Below, piece after piece: positions 2,009 through 20,967 of a DNA stretch of 63,904 nucleotides. Position numbers and translations under genes: made by a program. The notes beneath the pieces are model-generated. The model searched no databases and was not told the DNA's origin. It saw only the letters and a program-made list of their open reading frames with translations. Source of the DNA: Candidatus Accumulibacter aalborgensis (GTDB taxonomy: Bacteria; Pseudomonadota; Gammaproteobacteria; Burkholderiales; Rhodocyclaceae). The stretch lies in contig NZ_FLQX01000116.1 in the NCBI RefSeq assembly GCF_900089955.1, positions 1-63,904 on the forward strand, given 5' to 3'. Positions within the stretch are counted from its first letter, which is position 1. Every line of letters begins with the position of its first letter.

Positions 2009-4738
2009 TCATCGCACCGCCACCCGAAACTGCCGCGCCAGCAATTCCCGGTTCAACTCGACCGTACCCGCGGTCTCGTCGAGCACCAGTATCGCGGCTT
2101 GATCAACGTTGAGCACGCGCTTGGCGGCATTGACAAAGCCGCTGATGCGCATTGCGGGCATGCCAAGGCGCTGCGCGAGCGCTGCTTTGGAAAGCTTCCC
2201 ACCACGAGCCGCCAATGCCTCGAGCAGGGAGCGCACGTCGGCATCGGCCGGTGCCACGCGTGCCGCCAGCGCCTTCTGTGCCGTGTAGGCGGGCGATGCC
2301 TGGAGAGCATCGATCCAGTGCACTTCGGGATCGACTGCCGCAACAGGTAGCGCCCCACCGAACAGATCGATCTGCGGTGTGGGTGCAGCCGGAGGTTTCG
2401 CTTTCAGCGGCTTCTTGGGGAGTGCCGGCGTTTCAGTACCTCCTGCCGGCAATGGCGCCTCCAGCGGCGCCCACCAGTCCGGCTGTGATGCCGCGGCCAC
2501 CTGCCAGCCCTTCAACACCATGTTGCGCGGCGTGAATACGCTCAGCGGCACGACCACCTCCTGCGCGGAGACGCCGCCGTGATAGCCGTTCTTCCTGGCG
2601 CCGTGGCGCACGCCTTCCGACCAGGTGCACACCACCACGTTACCGGACGCCGTTTTCACACGGCCGCCCTCGAAAACCAGCTCGCTTGCATCCGGCGTAC
2701 CCGACGGCAGTCGCCAGCGATCGCCCTCGCCCTGGCCGCGCTGCACGGTGCCGTCGTCGATCACATGCCCGTGGTCGGCGGTAACGATCACCACGCGTCG
2801 CGCTCTTCTCGCCTCGCTGAGCAAGGGCCCGAGTAGCCGCAGATCGTCGATCGTCCAGCGCACCTGGATCTGGTTCGATCCGCTGAGATGGTCGTCGACC
2901 GCGTTGTAGACCACGGCCACCACCTGCTGCTGGGTCGAGGCGATGGCATCGCGAACCGTTGACGACAGGCCTTCGGCGTCAGCGAGATCACCCTTGTGGA
3001 ATACCACCGGCGCAGTCCCGGCGCGCGACGCGCCGACGAGTGCCGGATGAGCCGCGAACGCTGTCTTCTCCTGCGCCGCCGCGCCGACCACCAGGCGGCC
3101 TGACAACAGGCTGGTACGGCTCACTTCGGTGATCGTCGGCAGCGCCGCGATCGCGATCGCGACCGCAAGCGTCGGCGTTGGCCCCACGAGCTGCTCGTCC
3201 CAGCCCAGTGCCTCCAGGTCCTGGCAAAGCTCCCGGAAGATGCTGTAACTCAGGCCGTCCGCCACCAGCAATAACACTGGCGCTTGTTGCGCCAACGGGG
3301 CGAGCAGGCGCTCGATGATCGCCTCCACCGGTAAGCATGCTGCCTCCGCCCGCGGCTCACGATTCCAGACCTGCAATGCCTTGGCGAAGGTCTGATTGAA
3401 GGCCTCGGCTTTCTTGCGCGCCACGTCGCGCAGGGCGACAAAAGCCGAAGAAAGTCCCGGCAACTCGTCGCCACCGATCAACTTGAAGCGTGCCCAATCA
3501 ACGAAGGCGCCTTCGCGGGCATAGCACTGCGCGAGCTCATGGAACCCTGTTGCCTGACGTCCGTTGCGACCCTTGCTCTCGGGCCGCTCGGCGATCATCC
3601 ATCGGCACAGGCGAAGCGCCATTTTCACTCGCAGCATGCGCGTGCTTGCCGGGTCGGGATGAGCATGGCACGCCACAGAATCAGCCGCCTGTTCGACGGC
3701 CTGCAGTTGTGCCGGGGAGGGCTCGGCGATGAAGGTCTTGAGCGCATCCGCGAGTAGCCCAAGCCTCCGCTCCAGGCCAAGTGGAAGCACATCGCTCAGA
3801 TGGGCGTAGGCATCAATATGAAGTTCGCGCAGGAGCAACTCGGCGCGTTCGATCACCTCGTGGCGCAAGGCGAGCGTCAAGGCATTCAGACACTTCGCTG
3901 CGGCAGCGGCCCAAAGGCGGCCCTCGGCGATAGCGATGCACTGGTCACCCATGAAGCGTTCGAGACGTATCGCTGCGCCGGCAAGTTCGTGCACGCCTTC
4001 GCCCTGAGCCGACAGCGCCACGCCGCACACCAGTCCGAGCGGGACGGCCTCCTGCGCGTTGCCAGCCATCACGCAGCGCATGACGAGCGTGCCCACTGCC
4101 CCGGCCGAGTCGCCCAGCCAAGCGGCGATCTGCGGTTTTGCTTGATCAGGCAACTCATCGAAATCCCCGGCCGAATCAGTGTCCAGCGACCAGTTCAAGA
4201 GCGTCGCCGCGTCCGGCCTCGATGCATCCAGGCCCAGGCAACGGCTGAGGATGCAGCGCCATGCCGTATCCATGTCCAGAAAACCGTTGGGCACGGGCGA
4301 ATAAGCGCCCATGCTGGCCCGTTCAACAAGCAGTTGTGCCATCCACCGAAATCGGCCGAGTCGCGCATCGATCTCGCGCGCTTTGAACAGCTGCTGCACC
4401 ATACCCCAGGCGTCGGGCTGAAAGACCTGCGCACGTGCCAGCCGGGCCACCACATCGCCGCCCAGATCGCGTGCGGACAGCGGCGTGAGCAGGATAAGCC
4501 CTCGCCCGGACTGGTCGTCAGCCCCCTCTTCCAGCGCGGACAGCGCCTCTCTGGCCATCAAGGGGCTTGCGCACCAGCGCAGCCGGAACTGCCGGCCCGA
4601 CAGCTTGATAGCGTCCGGCCACGCCGCCTGAGTCCTGGTCTGGATAGCGATCACCTTTGCGTCGCTCGCACGCTCCAGCACCGCGAGCGCCTGTGCCTCG
4701 ATCTGCGGCAAAGACAATGGCCCGGCTGCACCGTTCAC
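2009..4738 (-). CDS. pglZ: PglZ, alkaline-phosphatase-fold protein of BREX type 2
   Basis: This 909-residue protein is the BREX core component PglZ. The central to C-terminal part carries the PglZ alkaline-phosphatase-like fold, with VLLLVADGLSYS (a metal-binding Asp-Gly turn) and VVIVTADHGHVIDD near residue 655. A winged-helix-like end follows (LSKAALAQRLGMPAMRI). In BREX systems PglZ is essential for phage defence and host methylation, although its chemistry is not settled. The start chosen is GTG at 4738, which overlaps the pglY stop as GTGA and has GGGGAG about 4 nt upstream. A longer frame to 4768 lacks such support. It is the last gene of the operon. Confidence 0.92.
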   Translation of the reverse strand: MNGAAGPLSLPQIEAQALAVLERASDAKVIAIQTRTQAAWPDAIKLSGRQFRLRWCASPLMAREALSALEEGADDQSGRGLILLTPLSARDLGGDVVARLARAQVFQPDAWGMVQQLFKAREIDARLGRFRWMAQLLVERASMGAYSPVPNGFLDMDTAWRCILSRCLGLDASRPDAATLLNWSLDTDSAGDFDELPDQAKPQIAAWLGDSAGAVGTLVMRCVMAGNAQEAVPLGLVCGVALSAQGEGVHELAGAAIRLERFMGDQCIAIAEGRLWAAAAAKCLNALTLALRHEVIERAELLLRELHIDAYAHLSDVLPLGLERRLGLLADALKTFIAEPSPAQLQAVEQAADSVACHAHPDPASTRMLRVKMALRLCRWMIAERPESKGRNGRQATGFHELAQCYAREGAFVDWARFKLIGGDELPGLSSAFVALRDVARKKAEAFNQTFAKALQVWNREPRAEAACLPVEAIIERLLAPLAQQAPVLLLVADGLSYSIFRELCQDLEALGWDEQLVGPTPTLAVAIAIAALPTITEVSRTSLLSGRLVVGAAAQEKTAFAAHPALVGASRAGTAPVVFHKGDLADAEGLSSTVRDAIASTQQQVVAVVYNAVDDHLSGSNQIQVRWTIDDLRLLGPLLSEARRARRVVIVTADHGHVIDDGTVQRGQGEGDRWRLPSGTPDASELVFEGGRVKTASGNVVVCTWSEGVRHGARKNGYHGGVSAQEVVVPLSVFTPRNMVLKGWQVAAASQPDWWAPLEAPLPAGGTETPALPKKPLKAKPPAAPTPQIDLFGGALPVAAVDPEVHWIDALQASPAYTAQKALAARVAPADADVRSLLEALAARGGKLSKAALAQRLGMPAMRISGFVNAAKRVLNVDQAAILVLDETAGTVELNRELLARQFRVAVR

Positions 4739-7700
4739 TTGCTGCTCCCCGGTTTTTCGAGCCGCCACGAGATCGACAGCCGCAGGTCCGTGTCGCTATC
4801 CAGCCTGGCGTGCAGATCGTCAAGCAGCGCCAGTGCTTGCGTGCTTTCAAGGTCAGCCGCGGCAGATTCCTGAACGATCACCGGTGGCCTGGGTGCCGGC
4901 CGGCCGGGTGGCACCGGCGTCGGAATTGTCGGCAGTAGCGGTGGTGACGGCGGGCCGGGAGGCGTCGGTGACGGCGCCGCGGTCAGCAAGCGCACGGCCT
5001 TGATGCGCTGTTCATCGAGCGCCGCCTTCAGCCCGATCGCATGCTCGTCGGCGGTAAGTGTCTCGCACACCTTGGCGACAATCACCTGCGCGGCGGTTTG
5101 CCGCTCGTCGGTCAGCGCCTTCATCGCCGCGAAGATATCCCAGGCGCCGGTGCGCACCGCCTCGTCGAGTTCGCGCGCCTTGGCCAGGGTCTGGCGCATG
5201 GCGACCTCGGAGGTCTCGATCGGCGCGCCGGCCAGGGTCGTGACCACGGCCGCAGTTTCGGCACTCAACAGCCCGGCAAGCAAGGCCTGCGCGGAACGCG
5301 CCGTCTGCTGGCGATGGTTGTTGCCAGCGGCCGGGAACAAGGCGGACTTCTCGTTCAGCGTCTTGACCAGGCTGCTGATCGCCTCCCGAGCCTCGCGCGC
5401 CCTGGCCTGCACTTCTTCAACCAGCCTGGCGACGTTGCCCGCGTTGCGCGAGGTCGGAATGGTCAGCCCGAACAACGCAGCGGCACGCTTGCAGGCGGCC
5501 TCCCAGTCGCCCGCTTCGGGCAGCATCTGCTCGCGCAGCTCCAGGTCGTCCGGCATCTGGTCGATGGTCGGCATGTAGGCGACGTTGCCGCGCACGAAGC
5601 TGCGATTGGTCTGCCCGGCGAAGGCGAGGATGATCAGGTTCTGCACCTCGGCCGGCAGCCCCATCGCCAGCGGTTGGTCGATCCACTTGCGCAGCTTGGC
5701 GACGGTGATCGCGGCGCCCGTTTTGGCCTGCTCGCGGAGGAAGTGCGAGCGCCAATGGTCAAGCAGCACAAAATGGCTCTCGCCGGTCTTGCCCAACTGC
5801 ACCGGGTCGGCGATCGAGCGGACCAGTTGCCGCAGCACGCGATCGCCGACCGGCGCACGTTCGTCGGCGCTGCCGATGGCGCGCTCCAGTTCCGGCCACA
5901 CCTTTTTCACCACCGCAGGCCTCACCTCGGCATCGAAGACCGGGTGTGCCGGGTATTGGTGCCTGAAGAGCTGGTCGAGCAGTGCCTCGAACGCTGATTT
6001 CAGGTTCGCCCCGACGGGCGGTAGCGGAGTCAGCGTCTGGTCCAGCGAGCGGAACTGGTCTTCGGGCGCCATCGGGTTCACCACGGCGTCGCGCGAGTCG
6101 CCGGCGATGCCGTAGGCCACCTCCAGGTACTGGCGAACCCGCTGCTGCAACTGATCACGCTGGTTGCGCAGCAGCGCCTGCGCCGGCCCGCGGTCGACCA
6201 GCGCCAGGTGGGCGGCGAGCTCGTTGAAGCGCTCGCCGGTCAGAATGTAGTCCAGCACCACCAGGCGGCCCAGGTCATGCTGCGCCTTGGCGCTGAAGAA
6301 CGACGGCATCCACACCAGCGTCCGCGTGTCGTCGCCGCGATAGCCCGCCAGTCGGGCAAGATCGTCGGCAGGGGAGAAGCGAGGGTCGTCGAACGGAAAG
6401 TCGATGACCACCGTCCAGGTGCCCGGGCGCCCGCGCAGTTTCTCGTCCGACAGCTCGCGGACGTTCTCGAAGAGCACCTCGACCTCGCGCTTGGTGCCGC
6501 GCCACAGCACCGAGTAGGTGGCGAACAGGTCGTTGCTGTCGGTGACGCCGAGCTGCTCGAAGAGCATCTCGCGCACGCGGCGGCGGCGGTTGCCGGGATT
6601 GTCGCTGGAGGCTGCCGGTCCGCGCACGATGGGCTCGATGTCGACGCCGGTGACCTGGATCGAGATCAGTGAGTTGGTGTCGTCGGTTACCTTGATTTCG
6701 CCGATGTCGGCCGCCCACTCCTTGCACTTGCGCAGCACGTCCTGGGTTTCCCGGCCGGGGATCGGTGAGCGGATCGTTCCGTGGTTCAGCGCGGCCAGGC
6801 GTTGCGCGGTCAGGGCCTTGAGCGAATCGACTTCGGGCACCAGGGCGCTCAGCAGCAGCGTCTTGATCAGCCGCGCATCGTTCCTCAGCGCTCTGGCCCT
6901 GGCCGGGTCGGCGTCGCCGATACGGATATTTTCCCAGGTCACGCCATGCTGGCGCTCCAGATGCGGCAGCAGCTTCTGCCTGTAGAGTCGCTTGGCGTTG
7001 TCGAAGTGAATGCGCATCGCTTCCGAGAACGGCTCGTCGCCATCGGCGATCACGTCGAACAGGTCGCCGACCGGAATGATCTGGCCCAGTTCGAGGTCAT
7101 CACGCCGATCGACCAGCAGTTGCAGCATCAGCTTCAAGGCCGTGCGTTCGCGCTGCAAGGCCGCCGAGACGGCAATCAGCGTCTGCACCAGCGCCGGGCT
7201 GAACGGATAGACCTTGCGGAACATCTCCTTGTCCGCGGTCTCGGTCAGCAGCGTATTCCAGACCTCGGGCCTTACCTTCTGGAATTCATCGAAGGCGTTG
7301 CCCAGCGTCTGCCGGGCCGCTTCGGACAACGGCCGGAGCACCCGTTTCTCGGCAATCGCCGGCAGGTTGCGGTCTTCGAGCGTGATGCGATGGAAGCGCG
7401 CCTCCCAGTGGCGCAACACGTCGCTGAACTGCAATTGCAGCGAGCCGGCGAGGTTCTCGCCGACCAGTTCGCGCAGATCGCGTTGCCGCGCGACGAAGCT
7501 GACCAGCGGAATCGGCCGATCGGCGTTGCCGGCTTCGACGAGCTTGACGAGCTTGGTGCCCTCGCTACTCACGAAGCTGACATCGGCTGCCCGGCTGGCC
7601 AACCACAAGATCAGTTCGTCGAGGAAGAGGATCACCGCGTCGTAGCCGAGCGCGTGAGCGTGGCGGCTCATGATGCTGAGGCCATCGTCGAGCGGCACGA

Positions 7701-8451: not shown

Positions 8452-9954
8452 TCATCGCAACGGCTTGACCCCGCCACGCCGGCCGAGACCAAATGCAATG
8501 CGGTACACGTCGGGCATCTGGATGCGGCCGTCAGACAGCCGTTGGATCAGTCCAAGCTCGGCCAGATCGAGCAACACGCCGTCAAGACCATCGACAAGGT
8601 GTTGGGGCGGCAGCTTGACGGACTTGCCAAGGTCGTTTAGCTCGTCTCCCAGCTTTTCCAGAACGCCATGCCGTTTCCATATCGCGCTGATGTCCGCCGG
8701 AAAGCATGGCACCGTCAGTTCGCCTCGCAGCGGCGACATGACGTTCTCCACCCAGGGATAGTCTTCGAGCACCAGTTCATCAACGCGCACTTGCGAAGCG
8801 GTTTGAACGCCTGCCTGAATCGACTTGAAGTGCAGCGGCAACTCGTGGTCCTCGAAGTCGCTCAGGCTCAACTCCGCAGCTTTGCGCAGGGCCTCGCAAA
8901 AGCTCCTCGGGCTGACTTGGTCGCGGCCGTCCTGCAAGTGGTTAACGGCCCATTTATACGGCTTGCCGCGCTTGAGCCCGGTGGGTGAAGACGACATCGC
9001 CTTACCAGCCAAGGACTCGAAGAGCTTCTCCTGCAAGTCCTCGTTGCCGCAAAGCTCCTTCGGAATGAGCCACAGGCTGTCCGCCTTCTGCCATTCCAGC
9101 GACAAGGTTGTGGCGGTCAGGTCACGAAACAACGCCCCTCCTTGCGTTGCGTTGCCGACACACTGATAGAACAGGGCGTAGAGGTCCACCTTGCGCCAAT
9201 TGAGATTGGCTCGGCGGGCGAGCAGCTTCGACGCATCGGGGAAACCGACGATAGCTCGATCCTCCAGCATGTCCGGCCGGACAAAGACCTTCAGGCGCAC
9301 CGCGCGCGTGGAGCGCATGTCCTGAGCCACCTGCAGCAGTCCACGTGCCAGGGGGCGGATATCGGCCCAGGTCTCGGCGAGCCGATCCAGCGCATCGAAA
9401 AGGACGAGTGAGGTCTTGCCGTCGCGATGCAGTGCGTTGTCGGCACCCAGCAGCATGCTGTCAAACGACTCCGGGCTGTCATGGACCCAGGCGGTGCGTG
9501 CAGCCCAGACGTTCACGCCGTCCGGTGCCGTTTGGGGAAATGGTGGGGGAAATTGAAGCTGGTGAGCGATCACCGCGCGCCAGATCGTCCGCGCGTTCTT
9601 GATCTGCGGGAACAAGCTGGCGAGCACGTCCTTGCTGGGTGCGTCTAGCGAGCCGGCCGCATCACCAAAACCCTGTCGGATAATCGTGCTTGGGGCGATG
9701 TGGGCATCCGGGAACGCACTCACCACGAACTTGCGGTGCTCGGTTGACGACAGTGCCGCCCACCAGAAACTCTTGCCGGCACCTCGTATTCCTTCGACCA
9801 CCGAGTTCTCGGGGTCGAGTGCCTTGGCATGACTGGGTGGCACATACGTCAGCGCCGGGGGTTGTTGGGTAATTGCCCCCGCATGGGCAACCTGAGGCAA
9901 GCCCTCAGCGATGGCTTGCCTCAGGCTTTTCTTGTCTTGCGGTGTCATGCTCAC
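8452..9954 (-). CDS. P-loop ATPase of an embedded defence-like module
   Basis: This protein of about 500 residues has an N-terminal Walker A, GIRGAGKS (residues 55-62), and a Walker B-like LVLFDALD (183-190). The rest has no motif recognised here. It does not resemble BrxD, whose P-loop region differs. The start is GTG at 9954 (GGGGA about 6 nt upstream) or ATG at 9948. The upstream KGGVGR ATPase stops 2 nt before this start, and pglY begins 24 nt after its end, so all three are probably co-translated. It is likely the partner of the KGGVGR ATPase and HEPN-like protein. A sensor or effector role is inference only. Confidence 0.75.
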   Translation of the reverse strand: MSMTPQDKKSLRQAIAEGLPQVAHAGAITQQPPALTYVPPSHAKALDPENSVVEGIRGAGKSFWWAALSSTEHRKFVVSAFPDAHIAPSTIIRQGFGDAAGSLDAPSKDVLASLFPQIKNARTIWRAVIAHQLQFPPPFPQTAPDGVNVWAARTAWVHDSPESFDSMLLGADNALHRDGKTSLVLFDALDRLAETWADIRPLARGLLQVAQDMRSTRAVRLKVFVRPDMLEDRAIVGFPDASKLLARRANLNWRKVDLYALFYQCVGNATQGGALFRDLTATTLSLEWQKADSLWLIPKELCGNEDLQEKLFESLAGKAMSSSPTGLKRGKPYKWAVNHLQDGRDQVSPRSFCEALRKAAELSLSDFEDHELPLHFKSIQAGVQTASQVRVDELVLEDYPWVENVMSPLRGELTVPCFPADISAIWKRHGVLEKLGDELNDLGKSVKLPPQHLVDGLDGVLLDLAELGLIQRLSDGRIQMPDVYRIAFGLGRRGGVKPLR

Positions 9955-9956
9955 GC

Positions 9957-11345
9957 TCAGTCCCCGAAAAGGATCGAAGAGACACGTTTGGCAAACGGAC
10001 CAAACGCAAGGTCAATATCCGCATCACCCACTCCGCCGCGAGCGTCGGACGCCATGGGGTCGAACTCCATAAACCTCGCGCTCCATCGCACAATCAATGG
10101 GAAGTGCGGCGCGCCTTCACTGTCCAAAGCGTATGCAAAGGCATTCTCGGGTTCGGCCTGAGCCGGGTCGATTTCGTCGTACAGATTCTCACTGAATAAA
10201 TCGTAGGACCGTTCCAGAAAGGAGTCGAAGTGCTCTTTCTGATCGGTCTCGGGAAACATTGCTCGTACCATCCACAGCCGTTCGCGCACCCCCCGCAGCA
10301 CTGCTGGTCGCTGTTGCCAGTGGGCGAAAAGTTGCCGGTAACCCTGCCAATTCTGTTCATTGTTGGTGGCGAAAAGCAGTGCCAGGTCGGCCAGGGTCGC
10401 GATCGAAATGGCCGCCAAATCGTGCAGCCCGGCGCGGCTGTCAATCAACACGATGTCTGGCCTCTCCCGCGCTTCCAATGCTTGCACCAGCCGCTGCATA
10501 CGCTGCGCAAAGCGCTCGGGCCCCGTCGGCGTGGGAAGATCCGCATAAACGCGCGCCAGTTTCGCCAGGTAAGCCAACTCACCTTGTCCCATGGCCGCAG
10601 CTACGCGGATACGTCCAGTCGTGTTTTCGGCCAGCGGACTATCTGCCACCAAATCGTCCAGCACCGAGTCACCGTGCTGAACACCGTCCTCGATGAACCA
10701 GTCCACCAAGCCAAACCCGGCGACGCGGTCGACCGGCAGCAATAGCCCGGACAAACCGGGCGATTCAAGGTCGAAATCCAGCAGCAGCACCTTCTTGCCC
10801 GCGCGCGCAAAGCTATAAGACAACATGGCCAGCGCGGTGGAACGACCGACACCGCCTTTCAGTCCGTAGAACACAACCCGTGGCGGCGCACTTGGCGCGC
10901 GCTCATGCGTGGTATGCAACCAATCCTGGCCAATAATTTGCCGATCCAGCAGGCGAACCGTCAATTCAGGGCGGATGTTGCCGTCTGGATCTTCGCAGGC
11001 TGGCACCAGCGTATCGTGCCAATCCGGGTTCTGAAACAGTGTTGCCGGATTGAAGAAATTGTCCCTGAACAGCACCTCATCGGCCGTGGCGTAGTGCTGC
11101 AGTTGTGCCGTCGCCTCCTTCAGCAGCACATAGGCTTCCAACGGATACACCTCGTCAGCAGGTGGTGCAGCTTCCGCACGTTCTTCCTCGTCATCCGGCG
11201 TGTGGGGCCGGTAGGCATCAACCGCGAAGCGAAGACGACCGTACACGTCGCGCACTAGCAGCACCGGCCAACGTGTGGGCAAGCGCGCATCCTGACTCGC
11301 TTCGGCCGCCTGCCGCAGCGCCTGGTTGAATCTGAGTGTATGCAT
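9957..11345 (-). CDS. KGGVGR-motif ParA/MinD-like ATPase
   Basis: This 462-residue protein has an N-terminal domain of about 150 residues of unknown function, then a SIMIBI-class ATPase. It shows the deviant Walker A KGGVGRST (163-170; Arg where ParA/MinD have Lys-Thr) and LLLDFDLESPG (187-197). DIVLIDSRAGLHD follows at about residue 285. Such KGGVGR ATPases are known as a variant family in accessory genome regions; no cellular role is established to my knowledge. ATG at 11345 shares one base with the stop of the HEPN-like gene (TGATG), and AAGGAT lies upstream. It is embedded in the BREX operon between the PglX C-terminal domain gene and pglY. Confidence 0.8.
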   Translation of the reverse strand: MHTLRFNQALRQAAEASQDARLPTRWPVLLVRDVYGRLRFAVDAYRPHTPDDEEERAEAAPPADEVYPLEAYVLLKEATAQLQHYATADEVLFRDNFFNPATLFQNPDWHDTLVPACEDPDGNIRPELTVRLLDRQIIGQDWLHTTHERAPSAPPRVVFYGLKGGVGRSTALAMLSYSFARAGKKVLLLDFDLESPGLSGLLLPVDRVAGFGLVDWFIEDGVQHGDSVLDDLVADSPLAENTTGRIRVAAAMGQGELAYLAKLARVYADLPTPTGPERFAQRMQRLVQALEARERPDIVLIDSRAGLHDLAAISIATLADLALLFATNNEQNWQGYRQLFAHWQQRPAVLRGVRERLWMVRAMFPETDQKEHFDSFLERSYDLFSENLYDEIDPAQAEPENAFAYALDSEGAPHFPLIVRWSARFMEFDPMASDARGGVGDADIDLAFGPFAKRVSSILFGD

Positions 11346-11776
11346 CAGAGCGATCCTTGTTTGACGACGTCGAGGTGGTTCACCATTTCCTGCGCTGCCG
11401 CTGCCCAATTGGGCAGCGATTGACGTGGCAAGGCAGCTACCTTCCAGTACCGATGCTCAGTTTTCCAATCATGCATTTTGCCCAAATGAGGTACCGCGGC
11501 AAGCAAGGCGGAGGCTGAACGTCCGTCTGGCAAGGTGGTCATGGCAGCAATCATCTGGGTAAGCCGGGGCAGGTGCTCCTTAAACTCTCCCGCGATGCCG
11601 CCTTCCGCATCCGCAGGCGTACCCGATTGAATCAGCAGCGCCTTCAGTCCACACTCGACGCTGAAACCATAAAGCTGCCCCGCATTCGCGTGGCCACCTG
11701 ATTGATGCAGTTTGCCCGCGTCCTTGAAATGCCGCCGGGCACAGCCCGCATAGTCGACCCGCTTGGTGACGCTCAT
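11345..11776 (-). CDS. small HEPN-like helical protein
   Basis: This 143-residue, mostly helical protein contains YGFSVECGLKALLIQSG, which resembles the second helix of HEPN-fold proteins. The catalytic RNase motif R-X4-6-H typical of HEPN toxins is not evident, so a non-catalytic adaptor or antitoxin-like role is as likely as RNA cleavage. ATG at 11776 overlaps the preceding stop as ATGA, with AGAAAGG upstream. It overlaps the next gene by one base. It is therefore the first gene of a tightly coupled three-gene module (HEPN-like, KGGVGR ATPase, P-loop ATPase). The fold assignment is tentative. Confidence 0.6.
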   Translation of the reverse strand: MSVTKRVDYAGCARRHFKDAGKLHQSGGHANAGQLYGFSVECGLKALLIQSGTPADAEGGIAGEFKEHLPRLTQMIAAMTTLPDGRSASALLAAVPHLGKMHDWKTEHRYWKVAALPRQSLPNWAAAAQEMVNHLDVVKQGSL

Positions 11777-12978
11777 GTTTTTGCCTTTCTGCCACGTTTG
11801 ATCGCCGGCGCTGCCGGCTTCCACGCGCGAAGATCATCAAGCGTGAATTGCAGTGCTCGCGCCTCGTCGGTGACGAAGCTCTCGTAGTAGTCGCCCATGC
11901 GCGCGCCGAAATCGGGGTTCATGTCGTTGTGCCATTGCTTGAGCCAGGGCACCAGTTCGAGCAAGCCGGCGAGCAGGGGTTGTAGCCGCTCGCGACTCCA
12001 TCCTTCGCGTTCCTTCATGTCGATGAAGTACGTCGCCAGGGCAGTGGCCTGCTGCAGGTGATCCCAGCCGGCCCAGGCGATGACCAGGCTGCCGTCGACG
12101 CCGCGCTCGCAGCCGGGGTAGCTGATCCAGCGCTCCTTGGGAACGTCCAGACCGCCGCGCAGGCGCCAGAAGTCAGCCTTCAGGAAGTCCTTGCTTTGGT
12201 ACTTGGGCGGCACCGGGATCTTGCCGACGCTGATGGTCAAATCCTCACCTGCGTCTTGGCGCCGCTGCAGAGCCCAGGTTTCTTCCCACTGGGCGCGCTT
12301 GCGCAGGCCGGTGTCGGTGTAGCGCAACACCGGCAGGAAGGGCACGGACTCGGCGGCGATGAGGTTGGCAACGAGCGGGTTCAGATCGAAGTCGGCACGG
12401 CCGGCATATAGCGCGGCAATCTGCATGAACTCGGCGTCGCGCTGCAGCGCGTCGGCCAGGCGGCTGGTGCTGGTCATCTGCGGCGGCTGGTCGGCGCTGG
12501 TGGGCCAGTAGCGCGGCGATTCCAGCCGCGCCAGCAGCCAGTCGCGCAGCGCGGCCTGTTCCAGAGACTCCCACGACGGCGAGTTCCAGCGACGCTTGTA
12601 CTCGGGGCGCTCGATCAGGCCGATGTTGCGGTCGCTCTCGATCAGCTCGATGCGCCGCTGCACGACGCGGCGATAGTCCTCCGGCCAGCGCGCAGGAATC
12701 TCGGTGATCGGTGTCGAAGCGTGACGCTCGAACCAGGTCGTCGATTCCTGGCCCGCCGCTACGCGGCGGGCCAGGACGATTTCAAAAGCGCGCTCGCCGA
12801 GCGCCACTTCGGGCGGGGCAGCGTGCTCAAAAAGCGATTCCCCGCTGTCGGCGGGCAGCAGACCGTAGAGGCGATAGCAGCGCCAGTCGAGTTCTTCCTG
12901 TGCGGCGATCATCTGGCGACGCAGGTGGGAAGCGTGGGAGCAGGCGGCGTCGAGGCTTTGGCGGGTGGGGAGCGTCAT
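11773..12978 (-). CDS. detached PglX C-terminal domain (DUF7008-like)
   Basis: This 401-residue protein corresponds to the C-terminal third of full-length type 2 PglX. It opens with a coiled-coil-like helix and the characteristic EELDWRCYRLYGLL. It continues through LGERAFEIVLARR, ESDRNIGLIERPEYKRRW and VPPKYQSKDFLKADFWRLRGG, and ends in a basic KRGRKAKT tail. In usual type 2 PglX this follows the methyltransferase domain in the same chain and probably contributes DNA recognition. Here it is a separate frame 657 bp away from the pglX stop. The frame is open up to 13122, but the homologous sequence begins near ATG 12978. No convincing Shine-Dalgarno lies before that ATG, so its expression is uncertain. 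Confidence 0.8.
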   Translation of the reverse strand: MTLPTRQSLDAACSHASHLRRQMIAAQEELDWRCYRLYGLLPADSGESLFEHAAPPEVALGERAFEIVLARRVAAGQESTTWFERHASTPITEIPARWPEDYRRVVQRRIELIESDRNIGLIERPEYKRRWNSPSWESLEQAALRDWLLARLESPRYWPTSADQPPQMTSTSRLADALQRDAEFMQIAALYAGRADFDLNPLVANLIAAESVPFLPVLRYTDTGLRKRAQWEETWALQRRQDAGEDLTISVGKIPVPPKYQSKDFLKADFWRLRGGLDVPKERWISYPGCERGVDGSLVIAWAGWDHLQQATALATYFIDMKEREGWSRERLQPLLAGLLELVPWLKQWHNDMNPDFGARMGDYYESFVTDEARALQFTLDDLRAWKPAAPAIKRGRKAKT

Positions 12979-13036
12979 GGGGCAATCACGTTCAGAGAGT
13001 CGACGCTGAGGCCGGGAACGAAGAGCTTGCCGGTAG

Positions 13037-13135
13037 CGCGTAGGTTGGGGTGAGGCACGAACCCCAACATTCAAGGATAGCCTGTTGCCGAGCGGGGACT
13101 TGCGTTGGGGTTCCTTCGTCACCCCAAGCTACGCG
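13037..13135. repeat. paired inverted repeat in the pglX break (element 1)
   Basis: Two 32 bp arms (13037-13068 and 13104-13135) are inverted copies with a few mismatches. Both carry TTGGGGTGA and AACCCCAAC and end in CGCGTAG. Each arm can itself fold. The pair lies between the detached PglX C-terminal domain gene and the small inserted gene, next to another repeat element. Confidence 0.7.
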
Positions 13136-13166
13136 CTGTGGAAAAATTGCCGCCCCGCCCCAAGCT

Positions 13167-13261
13167 GTCATTCCCGCGCATGCGGGAATCCAGCACGTAC
13201 CACTTGTTCCTTTCCAAGCACACCGATAGATCGACTGGATTCCCGCATGCGCGGGAATGAC
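13167..13261. repeat. paired dRS3-like inverted repeat in the pglX break (copy 1)
   Basis: Two perfect 27 bp inverted arms (13167-13193 and 13235-13261) with the core ATTCCCGCGCATGCGGGAAT surround a 41 nt centre. The core fits the dRS3 pattern ATTCCC-N8-GGGAAT. A related pair is at 27784-27886. It stands inside the 657 bp that separates the two parts of PglX. Confidence 0.85.
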
Positions 13262-13300
13262 GAGACAGGAAGCGGGATCGGGTGATTGATTCACCGGATC

Positions 13301-13648
13301 TCAGTCCTCACGCCCCGGCTGCGCCCGGTCGACGCGCAACTCGCGCTGCCAGGCCGACGCGTCATCGATGGAGGCGAAAGTTCCCGCTTGCGTGACGGCG
13401 GCCAGCGCCTGACGCATTACCGCCCGACGGTCGATTTCAGTGGCGATGTCTTCGTCAATTATCGTCTCAGCCTGCGGCAGCGCCTGCACCGCTTGCATCA
13501 AGCGCGCCCATTCCTGCTCGCGCTCGGCAGCACTGCGTTCGCTGCCCACGACCAGCACTTCGACCAAGGTCCCCGGCGCAAAAGGCAGGTGTGTGATGGT
13601 GAGTTCGCCAGTGGCTTGAATGCGGGCAGTGGTTTTATGGACTGGCAT
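13301..13648 (-). CDS. small protein inserted within the split pglX, antitoxin-like
   Basis: This 115-residue protein starts MPVHKTTARIQATGELTITH and LPFAPGTLVEVLVV, a short beta-rich N-terminal part like that of several antitoxins, followed by a charged helical C-terminal half. No toxin partner is adjacent, and the family is not recognised. Its ATG lies 14 nt inside the end of pglX, and CGAAGGAGACC lies just upstream of it (AGGAG spaced about 4 nt), a strong ribosome-binding site. It sits exactly where the PglX methyltransferase chain is interrupted. It could be an antitoxin remnant brought in with the insertion, or a small BREX-associated factor. Confidence 0.6.
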   Translation of the reverse strand: MPVHKTTARIQATGELTITHLPFAPGTLVEVLVVGSERSAAEREQEWARLMQAVQALPQAETIIDEDIATEIDRRAVMRQALAAVTQAGTFASIDDASAWQRELRVDRAQPGRED

Positions 13649-16094
13649 CGTGGTCTCCTTCGGGTACGCGGGATGTATCGAGCAAGGCCGCCGGGCTGAT
13701 GGCGGCGAGTTCCTGGGCGAGTCGGTCGAGGGTTTCGGCCAGATCGACCGGGCGGTTGTCGATCAGTGGGAACTCGGCCACGATCCCTGAGCCCAGTTCG
13801 TAGAAGTCCTCAAAGGGAGCCGTGCGTTGGCGAGCCCCCTTCTGGTCAACAGTGCTGCCGCGGTTTTGGCTTACTTGCTTTAGCCAGAAGCACGCTACGG
13901 AGGAATTCAGTAGCCCAAGCAGCCCGAGGTGTTCGTTCAGATCTGCCAGTTTCGGCAAGCGGATTACGGGTGCCGTCCGGTTGAATGCCTTACCGCCACG
14001 GTCGAGCAAGAAATGGTTGTGAGTAGAGACGAAGGAGAAGGGAATTAGATATGGGGCCAGCGTGCGCTCAGAAGAAACGAAGCTAAGTTCCCACCACGCC
14101 TTACCCGCCATCTCGGGGGTCTTCCCAAACATGAGACGGTTACGCAGCTTAGTCCGCATCTTCCAAAAGTGGTTTTCAAGTTTCGAGCATGCGGGAGATG
14201 CGGTCGCCGAATGCATGCCGTCCCTTTCTATGTACGGAAAGATAGCTACATCCGAAGGTGTGTGGGTCCAATCCCTTACCTCATCACCCACGCCGAACTC
14301 TTTTGTCGGCGCCTCGATCTTGGCGGCGACGTGTGGCGGCATTACATATACGTCGTCTTCGCCTGTAATGACCGCAAAGCCGATCGAAATCGACCACGTC
14401 TTCAGCACCTCGCGGCCACCTTCAATCCTTTGTTTTACCCCGAGTACGCCGCCACCCCCGATGCTCCACGGATGCCTGGCAAACGTCGCCCTGGGCGTGT
14501 CGGCGACGCTGACGAACTCGCTCTCCGACCCCGCGCGGTCGATCTGCCCGACGATCGCCGACCACACCAGCCCCTGCGCCGGATCGTCCGGCGTACTCGG
14601 CTCGCCCTTGATCCCCATCACCGTGCGCACCGCATCACTGACCGGCGCGCGATGCCGGCCGAACAGGATCACCGTCGGGGTGCCGTGGCCGGGGATGTAG
14701 GCGCCCGAGGTATCGACCACATGCGTGAGGTCCAGCCGTGGCAGGACCTGCTCGATCAGCTTGGCTCCAAACTCGCGTTTCATGAACGAGTTGGCAGTGA
14801 TCAACCCGACGTAGCCGGCCGGCTGGGCATCACGTCCGGTAACTGCCAGTTCGAAGAAGCGGTCGGTGAAAGGCGCGCCGAGCGAATACTTCATGTGGCA
14901 ACTGGCGTACTGCCTGCGATAGGCCGCGTTCAGCGCCGCGTCGCGGACGACGATGTACGGCGGGTTGCCGACCACGGCGTGGTACTGACGGCCCAGGATT
15001 TCCTGGACTTCAGCCAGGTCTTCGCTGGCGTACGCATGCGCCAAACCGGTATCGGCAAAATGTTCGGATCCCTGGAACATGTCCTCGGTGGCGCTCAGCC
15101 CGAAGCGCCGGCCGTGCAGCAGGCTGTCGCCAATGGCAACATGAATCTTGAAGTCGAGCGCCTCGGCCATTCGATGCACATCGCTGGCCTTCAACGCAGC
15201 CAACAACAGGCGGAAGCGCGCGATGGCCACCGCGAACGGATTCAGGTCAACGCCAGCGACCGCGTTCAGCGCCTTCTGCGCGATGTCGCGACGGTTGCGT
15301 CCCGGCTCGTTGCTCGACCACTCTTCAACCAGGCGATGGAAGCCACCGAGGAGGAAGTGCCCCGACCCGCAGGTCGGATCGATCATCCGCACTTCGCGAT
15401 AGCCGAACTCGTTGATCGCCGGGGTCAGCGTCCGGTCGAGGATGAACTCCTCGACGAACTCGGGCGTTTGCAGCAACGCATAGCGCTTGCGCGTCGCTTC
15501 GCTGAGGTCCTGATAAAGGTCACCGAGGAATCGTGTGTTCCAGCTCGGATCGGTGAAGTCGCGGATTAGCGCCCCGGAATCGGCGGCAACCTCCTGCCAG
15601 AACTGCATCACCGCCATCGCCGCATCACCGCTTATCCCTAAGCGAAAAACCGGGTTGTGGGCGCCGTCGAAGAAAGTGTGCAGGCCCGGCAGCGCTCCCG
15701 CCTCACGGAAACAGGCAAGCAGATAGTCGCGATCGTTCTGATGCGGATGTTCGCGGAAGTAGGCGTCATGCCGGTCGCGCGCCAGGGCCAGTCGGCCTGA
15801 TTGCGGTGTGCCGCTGATCCACGGCCGGTCCACTAACTCGTTGTCCTCGATGAAGCGAAGAAACACGCAGCTCAACAGCCAGTGCACGCCGGCCTGAGTG
15901 ATGGCCTGTTCTCCCCAGGATTCGAAGGCCTCCGCCGTGCGCCCGGCATCGCGCGCCGCCTGCCACTCGGCCTGCAGTTGGGTGCGCAGTTCCGGCACCT
16001 CGCTCGCTGAACTGAGGGCGCGTTCGCGCAGGTCGTCTTCGAGCCGCTTGAGCAGGCGGGTCAGGTCAGCGAGCAGGATTTGGGCATTGATCAT
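13635..16094 (-). CDS. pglX: PglX N6-adenine methyltransferase, lacking its usual C-terminal domain
   Basis: This 819-residue BREX methyltransferase is expected to modify adenine in a non-palindromic site using SAM, marking host DNA as self. Motif I is DPTCGSGHF (239-247) and the catalytic motif IV is NPPY (377-380), with GVDLNPFAVAIARFRL between them. The chain ends at LDRLAQELAAISPAALLDTS plus a short tail. Typical type 2 PglX is about 1200 residues and continues into the domain that here is encoded separately at 11773-12978. The stop overlaps the next small gene by 14 nt. Its start has only a weak Shine-Dalgarno, and a GC-rich inverted repeat lies upstream. Confidence 0.92.
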   Translation of the reverse strand: MINAQILLADLTRLLKRLEDDLRERALSSASEVPELRTQLQAEWQAARDAGRTAEAFESWGEQAITQAGVHWLLSCVFLRFIEDNELVDRPWISGTPQSGRLALARDRHDAYFREHPHQNDRDYLLACFREAGALPGLHTFFDGAHNPVFRLGISGDAAMAVMQFWQEVAADSGALIRDFTDPSWNTRFLGDLYQDLSEATRKRYALLQTPEFVEEFILDRTLTPAINEFGYREVRMIDPTCGSGHFLLGGFHRLVEEWSSNEPGRNRRDIAQKALNAVAGVDLNPFAVAIARFRLLLAALKASDVHRMAEALDFKIHVAIGDSLLHGRRFGLSATEDMFQGSEHFADTGLAHAYASEDLAEVQEILGRQYHAVVGNPPYIVVRDAALNAAYRRQYASCHMKYSLGAPFTDRFFELAVTGRDAQPAGYVGLITANSFMKREFGAKLIEQVLPRLDLTHVVDTSGAYIPGHGTPTVILFGRHRAPVSDAVRTVMGIKGEPSTPDDPAQGLVWSAIVGQIDRAGSESEFVSVADTPRATFARHPWSIGGGGVLGVKQRIEGGREVLKTWSISIGFAVITGEDDVYVMPPHVAAKIEAPTKEFGVGDEVRDWTHTPSDVAIFPYIERDGMHSATASPACSKLENHFWKMRTKLRNRLMFGKTPEMAGKAWWELSFVSSERTLAPYLIPFSFVSTHNHFLLDRGGKAFNRTAPVIRLPKLADLNEHLGLLGLLNSSVACFWLKQVSQNRGSTVDQKGARQRTAPFEDFYELGSGIVAEFPLIDNRPVDLAETLDRLAQELAAISPAALLDTSRVPEGDHDASP

Positions 16095-16722: not shown

Positions 16723-19700
16723 TCAGGCCGCGGCGGCGCGGTGCAGGTTTCTGGCCCAGGCGACGGGAACGTTCGCCCACTGGGTTGAGGTGATCACCGG
16801 TACGGGGACGTCGTCGACGGTAGGCAGACCGGTGGCCGCCATCGGCAGCAGCATCCACAGGCTGGCCAGTTTGCCCGGGCGGCCGACCTCGTCACGCAGC
16901 TCGTCGATCAGTGGCATCAGGCCATAGCGGGCAATCAGGCCCAAATTGACCAGCAGGACAGGATCTGTGGCATCGAGCAGCGCCTGCTTCACCTGCGGCA
17001 GCGCCTTGTGTACCAGGCGCATCAGGCGACTCCAATCGGTGCTGGTGGGGGCTGCGCCGTCGGCGGTGAGCACAAGATTCCAGTTGACCTTCAGCGTTTC
17101 GGCCTGTTGGCGCAGGGCCTTGAGCATGAGCGTGTCGAAGCTCAGCCGCTGGCGGCCGAAGCGGCGCAGCAACTCGGCTTCGACATGGTGCGCAAGCCGC
17201 GGCTCGACGGTCAGCACGAGAAAACCGCCAGCCTTGTGGGCATAAGCGAGCCGATCTTCCAGCTTCTGCGCCTCGATCGCCGGGGCGGATGCCTCGTTGG
17301 TGCCCGCATCCGATGCCGGCAAGCCGCGCTCCATGGTCGTGGTGACGCGCGAGTATTGCGTGGTGGTGCCCGCCGACGGGCCGAGCGCTTGCGTCGACGG
17401 CACGTAGCCCGAGCCAGCCGGGGTGTCGTCGCTCCAGACGAGCAGCGCGCCAACGTCGGCCAGAAGCGTGTCGAGGAGTGGGCGCTGCGGCAGCGGCTGT
17501 GCTTCGGGGTAGCGTCCGGCTACCCGGTCCTGCACGTCCTTGAGCTTGAGGAAACGCACCCCCATCAGCGCGCCTAGCGACTGGCGCAAGGCCAGCGCAG
17601 CGGCCATGCCGCGCGGATAGATTTCCTGGCGGCTGGACAGCGCCGCGTGCTGCGCTGCGGCGGTCGCCAGGCGTAACAGGCGCTGTGCCGAAAGCGCCGG
17701 ACTGACCTCGGGTGCGGGCACCGACGCCAATGTTTCGAGGGCTCTCTGCGGCGTCAGCAAGGGTTCGGCCTGCGCGCAGGCGTCTGCCGACGAACCGAGC
17801 CGACGGGCGTATTCGGCCAGCTCGACAGAAAAGGCGATCAGCGGCCAGGGGCGGTGCTCGAATTCCTGAAAACGCAGACGCTCCAGGTGGGCTTCGGCTT
17901 CGCAGCATGCGCGGACGACGGCGGTCGCCAGGCGCAGGCGCTCGGGCTCGTCCTGCGACGCACAGCCGCGCATGGCGAGCAGCGCCAACGCCAGCTCGGG
18001 CACGGTCATCACCCCGCCCTGGGTGGAGAGCAGGCTTTCGAAGTGATTACGCAGTTCGGTGAGCTGCGGCGTTTTCAGCCAGCGCTCACGAGCTTTCAGC
18101 AAGGCGGCGGAAAGGTCATTGCGGTCGATCGCAAGTGCGCTGGCGGCAACGCCCAGCGGTGTCCATAGGCTCGAGCCTTCGGCCTCTTCCAGGCCAAGGT
18201 AGATGGCCAGTGCGGTTTCTTCGACACGGTCGTCGCCGGCCGGCCGGCGCGGCAGGAGCTGCGCCGCCAACTCATTGACGCTGATCGCGCCGGCGGCTGC
18301 CGAATCGTCATCGACCTCGTGCAGCGTCGGACGGCCTTGAACGAGGTCCGGCCGGATGGCAGCCAGGGCTTTGGCCTTGAGGCGGATTTCCTTGCGGATG
18401 CGATCGCCGACGCCGCGCAGATAGCGGAAGCGCACGCGATCGACCGCCAACAGCTCGCGCGCGTTGTGGATGGCCATCGCTTCGAGCACGTTCTGTGCTT
18501 CGACGCTGTAGCCCAATTCGGCCATGTTGGTGCTGGCGGTGGCCAGGCGGGCGACGGCTTCGAACGGGTCGGCCGACTGCTGGCTCGCCGTCGCGCCGGC
18601 CTCGAAGATCCGGCGCCAGTCGCGCAGCATCTCTTCGGCATTGTCGAAGCGCTTGAGCGGGTTGCGGTTCAGCGCTCTGGCGAAGAATGCGGTGAAATCG
18701 TCGCGCAGCAAGGGGTCGAAGCGCTCGCTGGCGAGCGTGGCTTCGCAATCGAGCATCGACGCTTGTGTCTTGCCATCGCCCCAGCGCGGCGCTACGCCGG
18801 TGACCATTTCGTGCAGGGTGACGGCGAGCGCAAAGCGCTCGGCCTGGAGATCCCAGCGCGCCGGTTTGCGCAGTGAGAGGAAAGGGTCGAGATAGGGATG
18901 CGTGCCGGCGGAGATGTTCTCGGCCGAGGTACGGGTCAGCGAGAAATCAAACAGGACCAGTTGCAGCTTGCCGCGGGTACCGGCCTGCGACATGCCGATG
19001 TTGTCGGGCTTGATGTCGCGGTGGGCGACGCCTTGCTGATCGAGATAATCGACCGCCTGGATCAGCTCTTCGCCGAAGCGTTGCAGGAGGTCGAGCGACA
19101 GGCGAGCCTCTTCGCGGATGCGGTCGGCCAGGGTCTTTTCGCCAGCTTTGCGCATGAGCAGCGCCGTCCGGCCATTGACGCTGAGCGTGCGCTGCCACTC
19201 GACGATGTTCGGATGACGAAGTTTCGCAAGCGCTTCACCCTCGGCGGTGAGACGGTCATTGAAGCTCGCGTCGAGGGCGACCTTGAGGATCATCTCTTCG
19301 CTTTTGCCATCCTCGCGGACCAGCAGCACGTCGGCCGACGAGCCTCGGCCCATCTTGCGAATCACCGTGAAGCCGCCTTCGATGCGCTCGTCGCGATTGG
19401 CCGCGGCCGGATCGACGGTGGCCTCGGGTTCCGGGGTAGTCAGTTCATCGACGACCTTGTCAAGGTCTCGCAGGAACTCGTCGATGGTGCCGTAGCGGCC
19501 CATGACGTCGGGACAGGTGCTGTACTGGATGAGGTCCTGAAGCTGCTTGCCGCAGCCGTCGAGCACGTCCGACAGCCGCAGGCCTTGCCCAATGCGCAGC
19601 TTTTCGGCGAGATCGAGAACCGAGCTTGCCGGTGGCTGGCCGGAGAAGACGTGATAGGTGATCGCACCCAGGCTGAAGACATCCAGGCTGGGGCCTTGCT

Positions 19701-20967
19701 GCGCCTCTGACTGCGAAGTTTCCGGAGCCAGATAGACCAGGCCGGGGTCCTCGACATACTCCTCGACGTGCATGGTGCCGCCGACGGTGCGGCGCGCTGG
19801 ATCGATGGTGTCGCTGCTCTGCGTTCCCTCTCGTGTACCCGTCTGCCAGTTCATGATGCGCGGCCGTGGCGTTGCGCCGGCAACGTCCTGAACCAGGACG
19901 CTTTGCGGACACAAGGCGCGGTGGTAGAGGCGCTTCTGGTGGGCGTGTTTGAGGGTCTCGGCCAAATCACGGACGATCTGCAGGCGCTGGTCTACGCTGA
20001 GCGGTTGGCCTCGCTGTTGACCCCGCTGTTGACCCATCTCGCGCAGCAGGAAGTCGAGCCGGATGGCCTTGGGGTCGTGATCGAAGATGAGCGCCGGGCC
20101 GAGTTCGCTGTCCTGGTAGTCCTTGACCTTGACGATGCCCGGGTGGTCAATGCCTTCGAGGATCTGGAACTCTCGCTGCGCCTGGCGAACCAGCGACTTG
20201 CGCGCATCGGGCGTGGTGGCAGCGGCGACCGTGTAGATGCGAACGCGCCGGCGTACGGCCGCCATCGCGGTGTGCGTGCCCTCCCAGTCCTGGTAGGAGC
20301 CGCCTTCCGACAACAGCGCGCCGAGCTGGTAGTCGCCAATCTTGCGATGCTTGTTCGAGGGCCTTATGCCGGCCTCTGCCATGGCCCGGGCAAGCACCCG
20401 GGCGTGCTGATGGTCGATGTGGCTGGGCTGGATCGCGCGGGCACCACCGCTGCCGTTTTGCAATGCGTCGATGATGCCGGTATCGGACTCGCTGTTCGGC
20501 TGACCGCGCAGGTAGGTGCCGGAGCGGGCCGGGCCACTGAGTTTGCAGGCAAGGCTGGTGGCCGACAGGAAAATCAGCGGCTCGACGAAGGGCAAGCGCA
20601 CCTTGGCCTTGAATACCGACGACTGCCGCCGCAACAGGCTGGCCAGTCGCTTCGACTTGCGGTTGGCGAGGATCAGCGGGTTGTCGCAGGCCCGTTCACG
20701 ACCGTCGGTGACCCACAGCCAGGTATGCGCATCGCCGGTGACGTCGCCAGGCCGGCTCTTGATCTCGATGAGGAAAAGACCCGCTGGCGTCAGGATCAGC
20801 GCGTCAACCTCGTTGACCTTGCCCTCCTCGTCGATGAATTCGAAGTTGGTCCAGGCGTGCCAGGGCTCGCGATCGGGAAGGTGCTTGCGCAGCCAGTCCA
20901 GGGCCTCGCGCTCCCAGGCGAACTGCGACTGTGAGACGGCCTGCCAGCGGCTGAGGCTCATGGGCAT
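16723..20967 (-). CDS. pglW: PglW, NERD-containing serine/threonine kinase of BREX type 2
   Basis: This 1414-residue multidomain protein starts with a NERD nuclease-related domain (residues 10-100) bearing NEVDALIL and LIEIKS, which form a PD-(D/E)xK-like core. It is followed by two protein-kinase-like regions. The first (about 210-480) is degenerate: it has HRALCPQSV where HRDxKxxN is expected. The second (about 540-800) has an intact catalytic loop, HRDIKPDNIG, and a DFS variant of DFG. A long helical C-terminal region follows, with a helix-hairpin-helix-like segment (YLRGVGDRIRKEIRLK). PglW kinases are required in phage growth limitation. ATG at 20967 directly abuts the stop of the XRE regulator. 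Confidence 0.92.
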   Translation of the reverse strand: MPMSLSRWQAVSQSQFAWEREALDWLRKHLPDREPWHAWTNFEFIDEEGKVNEVDALILTPAGLFLIEIKSRPGDVTGDAHTWLWVTDGRERACDNPLILANRKSKRLASLLRRQSSVFKAKVRLPFVEPLIFLSATSLACKLSGPARSGTYLRGQPNSESDTGIIDALQNGSGGARAIQPSHIDHQHARVLARAMAEAGIRPSNKHRKIGDYQLGALLSEGGSYQDWEGTHTAMAAVRRRVRIYTVAAATTPDARKSLVRQAQREFQILEGIDHPGIVKVKDYQDSELGPALIFDHDPKAIRLDFLLREMGQQRGQQRGQPLSVDQRLQIVRDLAETLKHAHQKRLYHRALCPQSVLVQDVAGATPRPRIMNWQTGTREGTQSSDTIDPARRTVGGTMHVEEYVEDPGLVYLAPETSQSEAQQGPSLDVFSLGAITYHVFSGQPPASSVLDLAEKLRIGQGLRLSDVLDGCGKQLQDLIQYSTCPDVMGRYGTIDEFLRDLDKVVDELTTPEPEATVDPAAANRDERIEGGFTVIRKMGRGSSADVLLVREDGKSEEMILKVALDASFNDRLTAEGEALAKLRHPNIVEWQRTLSVNGRTALLMRKAGEKTLADRIREEARLSLDLLQRFGEELIQAVDYLDQQGVAHRDIKPDNIGMSQAGTRGKLQLVLFDFSLTRTSAENISAGTHPYLDPFLSLRKPARWDLQAERFALAVTLHEMVTGVAPRWGDGKTQASMLDCEATLASERFDPLLRDDFTAFFARALNRNPLKRFDNAEEMLRDWRRIFEAGATASQQSADPFEAVARLATASTNMAELGYSVEAQNVLEAMAIHNARELLAVDRVRFRYLRGVGDRIRKEIRLKAKALAAIRPDLVQGRPTLHEVDDDSAAAGAISVNELAAQLLPRRPAGDDRVEETALAIYLGLEEAEGSSLWTPLGVAASALAIDRNDLSAALLKARERWLKTPQLTELRNHFESLLSTQGGVMTVPELALALLAMRGCASQDEPERLRLATAVVRACCEAEAHLERLRFQEFEHRPWPLIAFSVELAEYARRLGSSADACAQAEPLLTPQRALETLASVPAPEVSPALSAQRLLRLATAAAQHAALSSRQEIYPRGMAAALALRQSLGALMGVRFLKLKDVQDRVAGRYPEAQPLPQRPLLDTLLADVGALLVWSDDTPAGSGYVPSTQALGPSAGTTTQYSRVTTTMERGLPASDAGTNEASAPAIEAQKLEDRLAYAHKAGGFLVLTVEPRLAHHVEAELLRRFGRQRLSFDTLMLKALRQQAETLKVNWNLVLTADGAAPTSTDWSRLMRLVHKALPQVKQALLDATDPVLLVNLGLIARYGLMPLIDELRDEVGRPGKLASLWMLLPMAATGLPTVDDVPVPVITSTQWANVPVAWARNLHRAAAA

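Follow-up and report, generated by a model that had tools for sequence, protein, structure and literature searches.

PDC-M28, a catalogued three-gene defence candidate, inside a type 2 BREX operon of Candidatus Accumulibacter aalborgensis

We analysed a 63,904-nucleotide contig of Candidatus Accumulibacter aalborgensis (NZ_FLQX01000116.1, hereafter the window), in which three genes, here called A, B and C, lie between the pglX and pglY genes of a type 2 bacteriophage exclusion (BREX) operon. They encode a small HEPN-like protein, a ParA/MinD-like protein with the motif KGGVGR and a separate P-loop ATPase. The trio is a copy of an already catalogued candidate defence cassette, PDC-M28; it is a mobile, self-contained unit and no part of BREX itself. 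From the sequences, we infer an effector-switch arrangement in which A may be the effector and B and C its two-ATPase switch.

PADLOC-DB 2.0.0 lists the same three-protein set as candidate PDC-M28A/B/C, which the window proteins match with E-values of 8.7e-32 (A), 5.5e-140 (B) and 5e-167 (C). As in the entry, A, B and C are adjacent on one strand; all three proteins, their set and their gene order agree, and the window trio differs in nothing tested. The output for the entry carries no description or function. PADLOC's PDC candidates reportedly come from a 2024 preprint in which Payne et al. treat defences nested within others. That preprint is cited beside PADLOC in a passage of PMC12629846, and PDC stands for phage defence candidate in PMC12242098. 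A full-text literature search of main texts turned up no paper that names PDC-M28 and none that contains KGGVGR. The 2026 BREX survey by Rakesh and Krishnan (PMC12839542) names HEPN proteins as auxiliary effectors and does not use the terms MinD, KGGVGR or PDC. An earlier note on this DNA had described the trio as a HEPN-like protein, a deviant ParA/MinD ATPase (KGGVGR) and a P-loop ATPase placed between the PglX C-terminal gene and pglY of a type 2 BREX operon, overlapping the preceding gene by 4 nt and each other by 1 nt or with a 2-nt gap. We judge this composition right, the coordinates agree, and model matches to PglW, PglX, PglY and PglZ bear out the nesting. The note did not recognize the trio, and this stands only with respect to function, for which the literature searched gave nothing, since PADLOC-DB already lists it as a candidate. 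Because of that listing, the note's caveat that the trio might match an already described system proved true at the level of a catalogue entry.

We next consider how far the three genes behave as a block. Contigs of named genomes were scanned with an alignment of C, and the best 80 of 264 relatives were kept, giving 81 loci with the window. Because the 80 loci were picked by similarity of C, the sample leans toward the window's clade; they come from Pseudomonadota, Thermodesulfobacteriota, Myxococcota, Acidobacteriota, Chloroflexota, Planctomycetota, Nitrospirota, Bacillota, Deinococcota and others. A, B and C are adjacent and in that order in 75 of the 81 loci, the six incomplete ones being either cut by contig edges (L060, L076, L090) or left with a remnant of B only (L071, L075, L087), with A not found in L071 and L075. 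When the start codon nearest the preceding stop was taken for each gene, the 75 intact loci showed an A/B overlap of 4 nt in 48 cases and of 1 nt in 20 (68/75 together), and B and C overlapped by 4 nt in 45/75. Pairwise divergences across the 75 loci were correlated (Spearman 0.64 for A–B, 0.79 for B–C and 0.73 for A–C; 0/500 permutations as high). Among 369 genomes of the window's class, strong matches to C were found in eight and strong matches to B in the same eight; seven of these also have A, and the other (G068) carries C and B without A at a contig edge. Weaker signals comprised a ninth match to C (G055), KGGVGR matches in seven more genomes and a match to A (G032). Occurrence is patchy: C is present in 9/25 genomes of the window's genus and in 9/369 of the class, the latter figure including the one weak match. 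In one locus (L088), a single stretch carries the trio twice, once on each strand.

BREX accompanies a minority of these loci. Type 2 genes lie beside 12/81 and type 1 genes beside 4/81 (L037, L038, L047 and L045, the last with shortened BrxC and PglX), a total of 16, or 17 with a doubtful locus (L055) whose BrxL-like gene is on the other strand. Because contig ends near the loci can hide neighbours, the number of loci without BREX is an upper count; among the 36 loci that have 5 kb of sequence on each side, BREX was present in eight (six type 2 and two type 1). In one type 1 operon (L038), the gene order is BrxC, PglX, trio, PglZ, BrxL. Neighbours outside BREX include a type III methyltransferase (L017) and DUF1156 methyltransferases (L023, L080), and many copies lack any close neighbour on the same strand. 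Same-strand neighbour families are scattered, without a single dominant partner (103 of 111 proteins tallied, a set that excludes proteins shorter than 120 aa and those in BREX-2 clusters). Within the window's genus, BREX-2 PglZ occurs in 6/25 genomes; it is linked to C in three (G000, G391, G385) and on a separate contig from C in one (G376). C occurs without PglZ_2 in G381, G383, G387, G388 and G390 (A and B share one shortened frame in G387, and C runs off the contig in G388), whereas G380 and G382 have BREX-2 but no C. On a tree of 78 C sequences built with a quick method, the starred branches force at least three changes of the BREX-2 label and at least three of the BREX-1 label, indicating that the trio entered or left BREX several times; all 12 BREX-2 members fall inside one clade of 18. 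We therefore rejected the idea that the trio is specific to BREX. The possibility that C stands in for BrxD was likewise rejected, as BrxD is present in 8/12 trio-holding BREX-2 loci and elsewhere in the window's genome. The earlier note had offered two roles and had asked whether the block recurs inside and outside BREX, as it does. Its second, independent anti-phage unit is probably right; its auxiliary regulator of BREX is largely refuted in any general sense.

The trio is also found on mobile DNA. A scan of viral contigs in IMG/VR yielded nine loci, eight of which have all three genes. On these predicted viral contigs, A, B and C were found by profile in seven; another (L184) carries A in an overlapping frame, one (L187) is cut, and two (L179, L183) are near copies. 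Ten neighbours on six viral contigs were tested and include integrases, a repressor, a primase/helicase, a major head protein and replication genes; the two neighbours in L185 gave just an unknown family and a weak anti-repressor match. Furthermore, 20 plasmid records hold a relative of C, and both conjugative plasmids examined, from Enterobacter asburiae and Burkholderia glumae, carry A, B and C in order; on the former, the trio adjoins an integrase and a TIR-domain gene. What speaks against a phage connection is that tblastn found no relative of C among 50,697 named phage records, so that this link rests on the IMG/VR contigs, which are themselves predictions.

Protein A is likely a HEPN-T protein that lacks the canonical Rx4-6H motif and has an alternative His and Arg-Tyr instead, as judged from its predicted structure and conserved residues. 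Its AlphaFold2 model has a mean predicted local distance difference test (pLDDT) score of 93.9, and ranks 1–7 of a Foldseek search with it were all HEPN structures (E 0.24–1.8, prob 0.75–0.98). 1o3u, 2hsb (AF_0298), 1wol and 3o10 are HEPN structures by title, and 1ufb is presumably another. For 2q00, the assignment is given by a table in PMC3710099. In the alignment of A (62/75 rows, after a length filter), R15, D19, H68, W104, R109 and Y110 never vary, and E41 and K45 hardly do. The model places E41-x3-K45 in helix 29–50, giving Ex3K in helix 2, and H68 in the loop between this helix and helix 71–78, after a short helix 63–66. Anantharaman et al. 2013 (PMC3710099) propose that AF0298-like HEPN-T and AbiV proteins have an alternative RNase site formed by an upstream His and an Arg, the His sitting in an insert between helices 2 and 3. 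A has each element of this arrangement: an upstream His in the helix 2–3 insert (H68), an Arg (R109) and Ex3K (E41/K45). Fourteen PF05168 HEPN matches were obtained from relatives, and the eight that were aligned have the invariant His and Arg-Tyr, with ExxxK in 6/8. The A profile also reaches a PF05168-like HEPN in G032 (21.4 bits, cut-off 22).

Several results weigh against this assignment. The Foldseek E-values of the HEPN matches exceed 0.1, and the canonical Rx4-6H is absent, there being no conserved His 4–6 residues after R109-Y110. The window protein has no significant match to Pfam HEPN (PF05168) and no NCBIfam match, and a sequence search of solved structures returned nothing for A at E 1. 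A profile-profile comparison of A with PF05168 members (hhalign) aligned 41 columns around Ex3K and was not significant (P 0.016, probability 2.9%); the control, C against the same members, gave P 0.95. Compared with the HEPN-T/AF0298 type (PF05168), A probably shares the helical fold, as predicted, and has the Ex3K of helix 2, the upstream conserved His and the Arg-Tyr, but the window protein lacks both a significant PF05168 score and Rx4-6H, and where the partner in that family is a minimal nucleotidyltransferase, A is found with two ATPases. Another parallel is a HEPN (MAE_18760) and ParA/Soj gene pair described in Anantharaman et al. 2013 (PMC3710099), in which a HEPN gene likewise lies beside a gene for a ParA/Soj-type ATPase. 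According to Table 1 of that paper, the MAE_18760 family retains Rx4-6H, whereas A does not; moreover, every intact locus of the trio adds a third gene, for an ATPase, to what the dyad has, and the Walker A lysine is missing from B.

Protein B belongs to the KGGVGR variant ATPases (NF047398; 190.3 bits against a curated cut-off of 90). ParA/MinD proteins of the SIMIBI class carry the signature KGGxGK[ST] with a Walker A lysine; in B the motif is KGGVGR, with Arg at the position of that lysine in 76/76 rows, and the SIMIBI signature lysine is retained. The B profile alignment kept 28/75 rows, and a sequence search of solved structures gave 49 matches, including ParA/MinD, ArsA and NifH types. 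MinD/ParA-like domains of some other conflict systems are predicted to be inactive in a passage of Kaur et al. 2020 (PMC7159879). In C, the Walker A motif GxRGxGK is invariant and the Walker B motif FDALDR conserved. Its AlphaFold2 model (mean pLDDT 94.1) matched BrxC N-terminal ATPase and ORC2 chains in all eight Foldseek matches at E<=0.001 (E down to 3e-5), making BrxC/PglY and other ORC/Cdc6-STAND ATPases its best structural matches; the low TM-scores of these eight (0.29–0.37 by query length) count against the resemblance. C has 500 aa against the 1230 aa of PglY, matched no PADLOC BrxC or BrxD profile at E 0.01 and scored weakly against the Sll1717-family model (49 bits, cut-off 75). Four sequence matches of C to solved structures (E 0.096–0.73) were taken as chance. 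A Pfam scan detected no nuclease domain in B or C.

Natural fusions offer a view of how these parts may belong together. In one locus of G247 (L190, 2303–5391), reached through weak B matches in the class search, a gene for a 138-aa A-like HEPN protein (domain E 5e-6) overlaps one that encodes 893 aa and has both a B-like (3e-23) and a C-like (1e-13) region. This diverged relative is a version of the trio in two genes; because the two regions are fused here, B and C probably act together. A gene adjoining this pair has, by eye, an NPPW methyltransferase-like motif. Elsewhere, L188 joins KGGVGR and an ORC-CDC6-like ATPase in one protein, the scanned part of a 1645-aa open frame (L189, 2328–7262) combines KGGVGR with an Mrr nuclease and a NACHT domain, and a further KGGVGR protein has TPR repeats instead (L100). 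These fusions share the KGGVGR module with B, two of them have a STAND-type ATPase domain, and each is one polypeptide, whereas the trio consists of separate genes. They support a working unit of an effector, a KGGVGR protein and a STAND-type ATPase.

With moderate confidence, we favour an independent cassette of the abortive type, whose predicted effector A would be gated by B and C and which has settled here between pglX and pglY. C, as an ORC/Cdc6-STAND-type ATPase, and B, as a SIMIBI ParA/MinD-like protein, would form a nucleotide-loaded sensor or switch that restrains the small HEPN protein. An infection signal would alter the state of B and C, so that A is released or assembled; the signal could be a component of the phage, nucleic acid of foreign origin or harm done to the restriction machinery of the host. 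A might then cut or block RNA through the conserved His68 and Arg109-Tyr110 and the infected cell would stop, making the trio an abortive-type second line beside BREX. A toxin–antitoxin addiction module, with A as HEPN RNase toxin and B (with C) as antitoxin or regulator, kept because it stabilizes its carrier element, is possible though unlikely. The proposal of HEPN and ParA/Soj dyads as such modules in part of PMC3710099, the occurrence of the trio on plasmids and predicted viral contigs and the PIN and ParE toxin genes among other cargo between pglX and pglY are all in keeping with it, but two large conserved ATPases exceed what an antitoxin needs, PADLOC lists the set as a defence candidate, and the trio sometimes adjoins methyltransferase-based defence. 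Addiction and abortive defence are hard to tell apart from sequence.

It appears doubtful that A is a non-enzymatic, nucleotide- or RNA-binding HEPN adaptor, with the active step taken by C or a host system: A does lack Rx4-6H, and nucleotidyltransferase-fused HEPN domains typically lack catalytic residues (according to a section of PMC3710099), but the invariance of H68, R109 and Y110 in 62/62 rows goes beyond the needs of a pure scaffold, and B and C are without a Pfam nuclease domain. That the trio serves BREX as an auxiliary regulator or subunit is improbable and, as a general role, largely refuted. Such a role would have as its basis the co-directional, overlapping genes in the operon, the 12 BREX-2 members in a clade of 18 C proteins and BrxC as the best structural match of C; against these stand BREX in just eight of the 36 fully flanked loci, the repeated moves into or out of BREX on the C tree, BREX-2 junctions that lack the trio and BrxD in 8/12 trio-holding BREX-2 loci. 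The ParA/MinD resemblance is the sole support for a reading as housekeeping genes or as open reading frames lined up by chance; this reading is already refuted by the patchy presence, the strong PADLOC matches and the A-B-C order in 75/81 loci, and can practically be discounted.

In the window, the trio is interlocked with its host operon, whose genes are listed in Table 1. A begins at 11776 and shares 4 nt with the end of the PglX C-terminal gene (11773), 1 nt at 11345 is common to A and B (stop of A, start of B), 2 nt separate the stop of B (9957) from the start of C (9954), and pglY starts at 8427, 24 nt past the stop of C (8452). The gene overlaps make it probable that the trio is transcribed together with BREX. 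Both PADLOC and NCBIfam models recognize PglW, PglX (split over two genes), PglY and PglZ; PglY, at 1063.8 bits, falls below its NCBIfam curated cut-off of 1700, and the other operon proteins exceed theirs. BrxD and BrxHI adjoin each other on a different contig of the same draft genome (C109). Between the two PglX genes (13122–13648), a short antitoxin-like open reading frame and an inverted-repeat pair were seen by eye; a two-frame PglX also occurs in L013, L033 and G382 (L141). Just past PglZ, close to the contig end, lies a PIN-domain toxin-like gene (1266–1670). Farther along the window, a 1616-aa protein (30109–34959) has matches to DpdF-like and GajB-like helicase profiles, and a transposase (PF21804) gene adjoins it (34967–37351).

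Table 1 Genes of the trio and of the surrounding type 2 BREX operon in the window
Feature	Coordinates	Strand	Remarks
Gene A, 143-aa HEPN-like protein (PADLOC PDC-M28A), predicted effector	11345..11776	minus	ATG start at 11776
Gene B, 462-aa ParA/MinD-like KGGVGR protein (PDC-M28B; NF047398)	9957..11345	minus	
Gene C, 500-aa P-loop ATPase (PDC-M28C), ORC/Cdc6-STAND-like	8452..9954	minus	GTG start at 9954
PglX C-terminal gene (DUF7008)	11773..13122	minus	PADLOC, NCBIfam models
PglX N-terminal methyltransferase gene	13635..16094	minus	PADLOC, NCBIfam models
PglW (NERD nuclease, kinase)	16723..20967	minus	PADLOC, NCBIfam models
PglY/BrxC ATPase, 1230 aa	4735..8427	minus	PADLOC, NCBIfam models
PglZ (BREX-2 type)	2009..4768	minus	PADLOC, NCBIfam models

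We also compared what other type 2 operons hold between pglX and pglY, using junctions from PglZ_2 searches of 41 relatives and the 369 class genomes (G000 and G323 are in both lists) and leaving out of the count unreadable or degraded cases (G376:C25, G380:C34, G247:C2) and the second PglZ piece of G200 (C47). Ten junctions were readable. Three hold the trio (G000, G391 and G385, the last being L033, with an added Fic gene and with pglX and pglY that look split), four hold other genes and three are empty (G196, G361, G200). The other genes are an AAA ATPase (Pfam) with a PtuB match, Septu-like (G380), a PIN toxin gene (G382), a Fic gene (G376), and a ParE toxin gene with a weak PP2C-like match (G202). 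PDC-M25 genes follow the trio in L015 (second gene scanned) and L028 (first gene scanned). These contents suggest that defence and toxin genes are exchanged as cargo at the pglX/pglY junction of type 2 BREX. In L155 (G247:C2), type 2 BREX is degraded: pglY is broken into several frames, and pglX was not found in the stretch available.

With Septu-like genes, PDC-M25, Fic, PIN, ParE and the trio among its cargo, the junction is a practical spot to seek further systems. A more speculative and rather unlikely extension is that the trio is a guard system, in which B and C would watch a host methyltransferase-based defence and a phage inhibitor that disables it would unleash A as a HEPN RNase with a non-canonical His/Arg-Tyr site; with similar reserve, the guarded defences might be BREX 1, BREX 2 and the type III or DUF1156 methyltransferase systems nearby. 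If this were true, the BREX junction would be a functional niche, beyond a landing site. For PDC-M28 itself, a listed yet undescribed candidate gains a testable anatomy: a putative small effector with named residues and a predicted two-ATPase switch, whose parts are naturally fused elsewhere.

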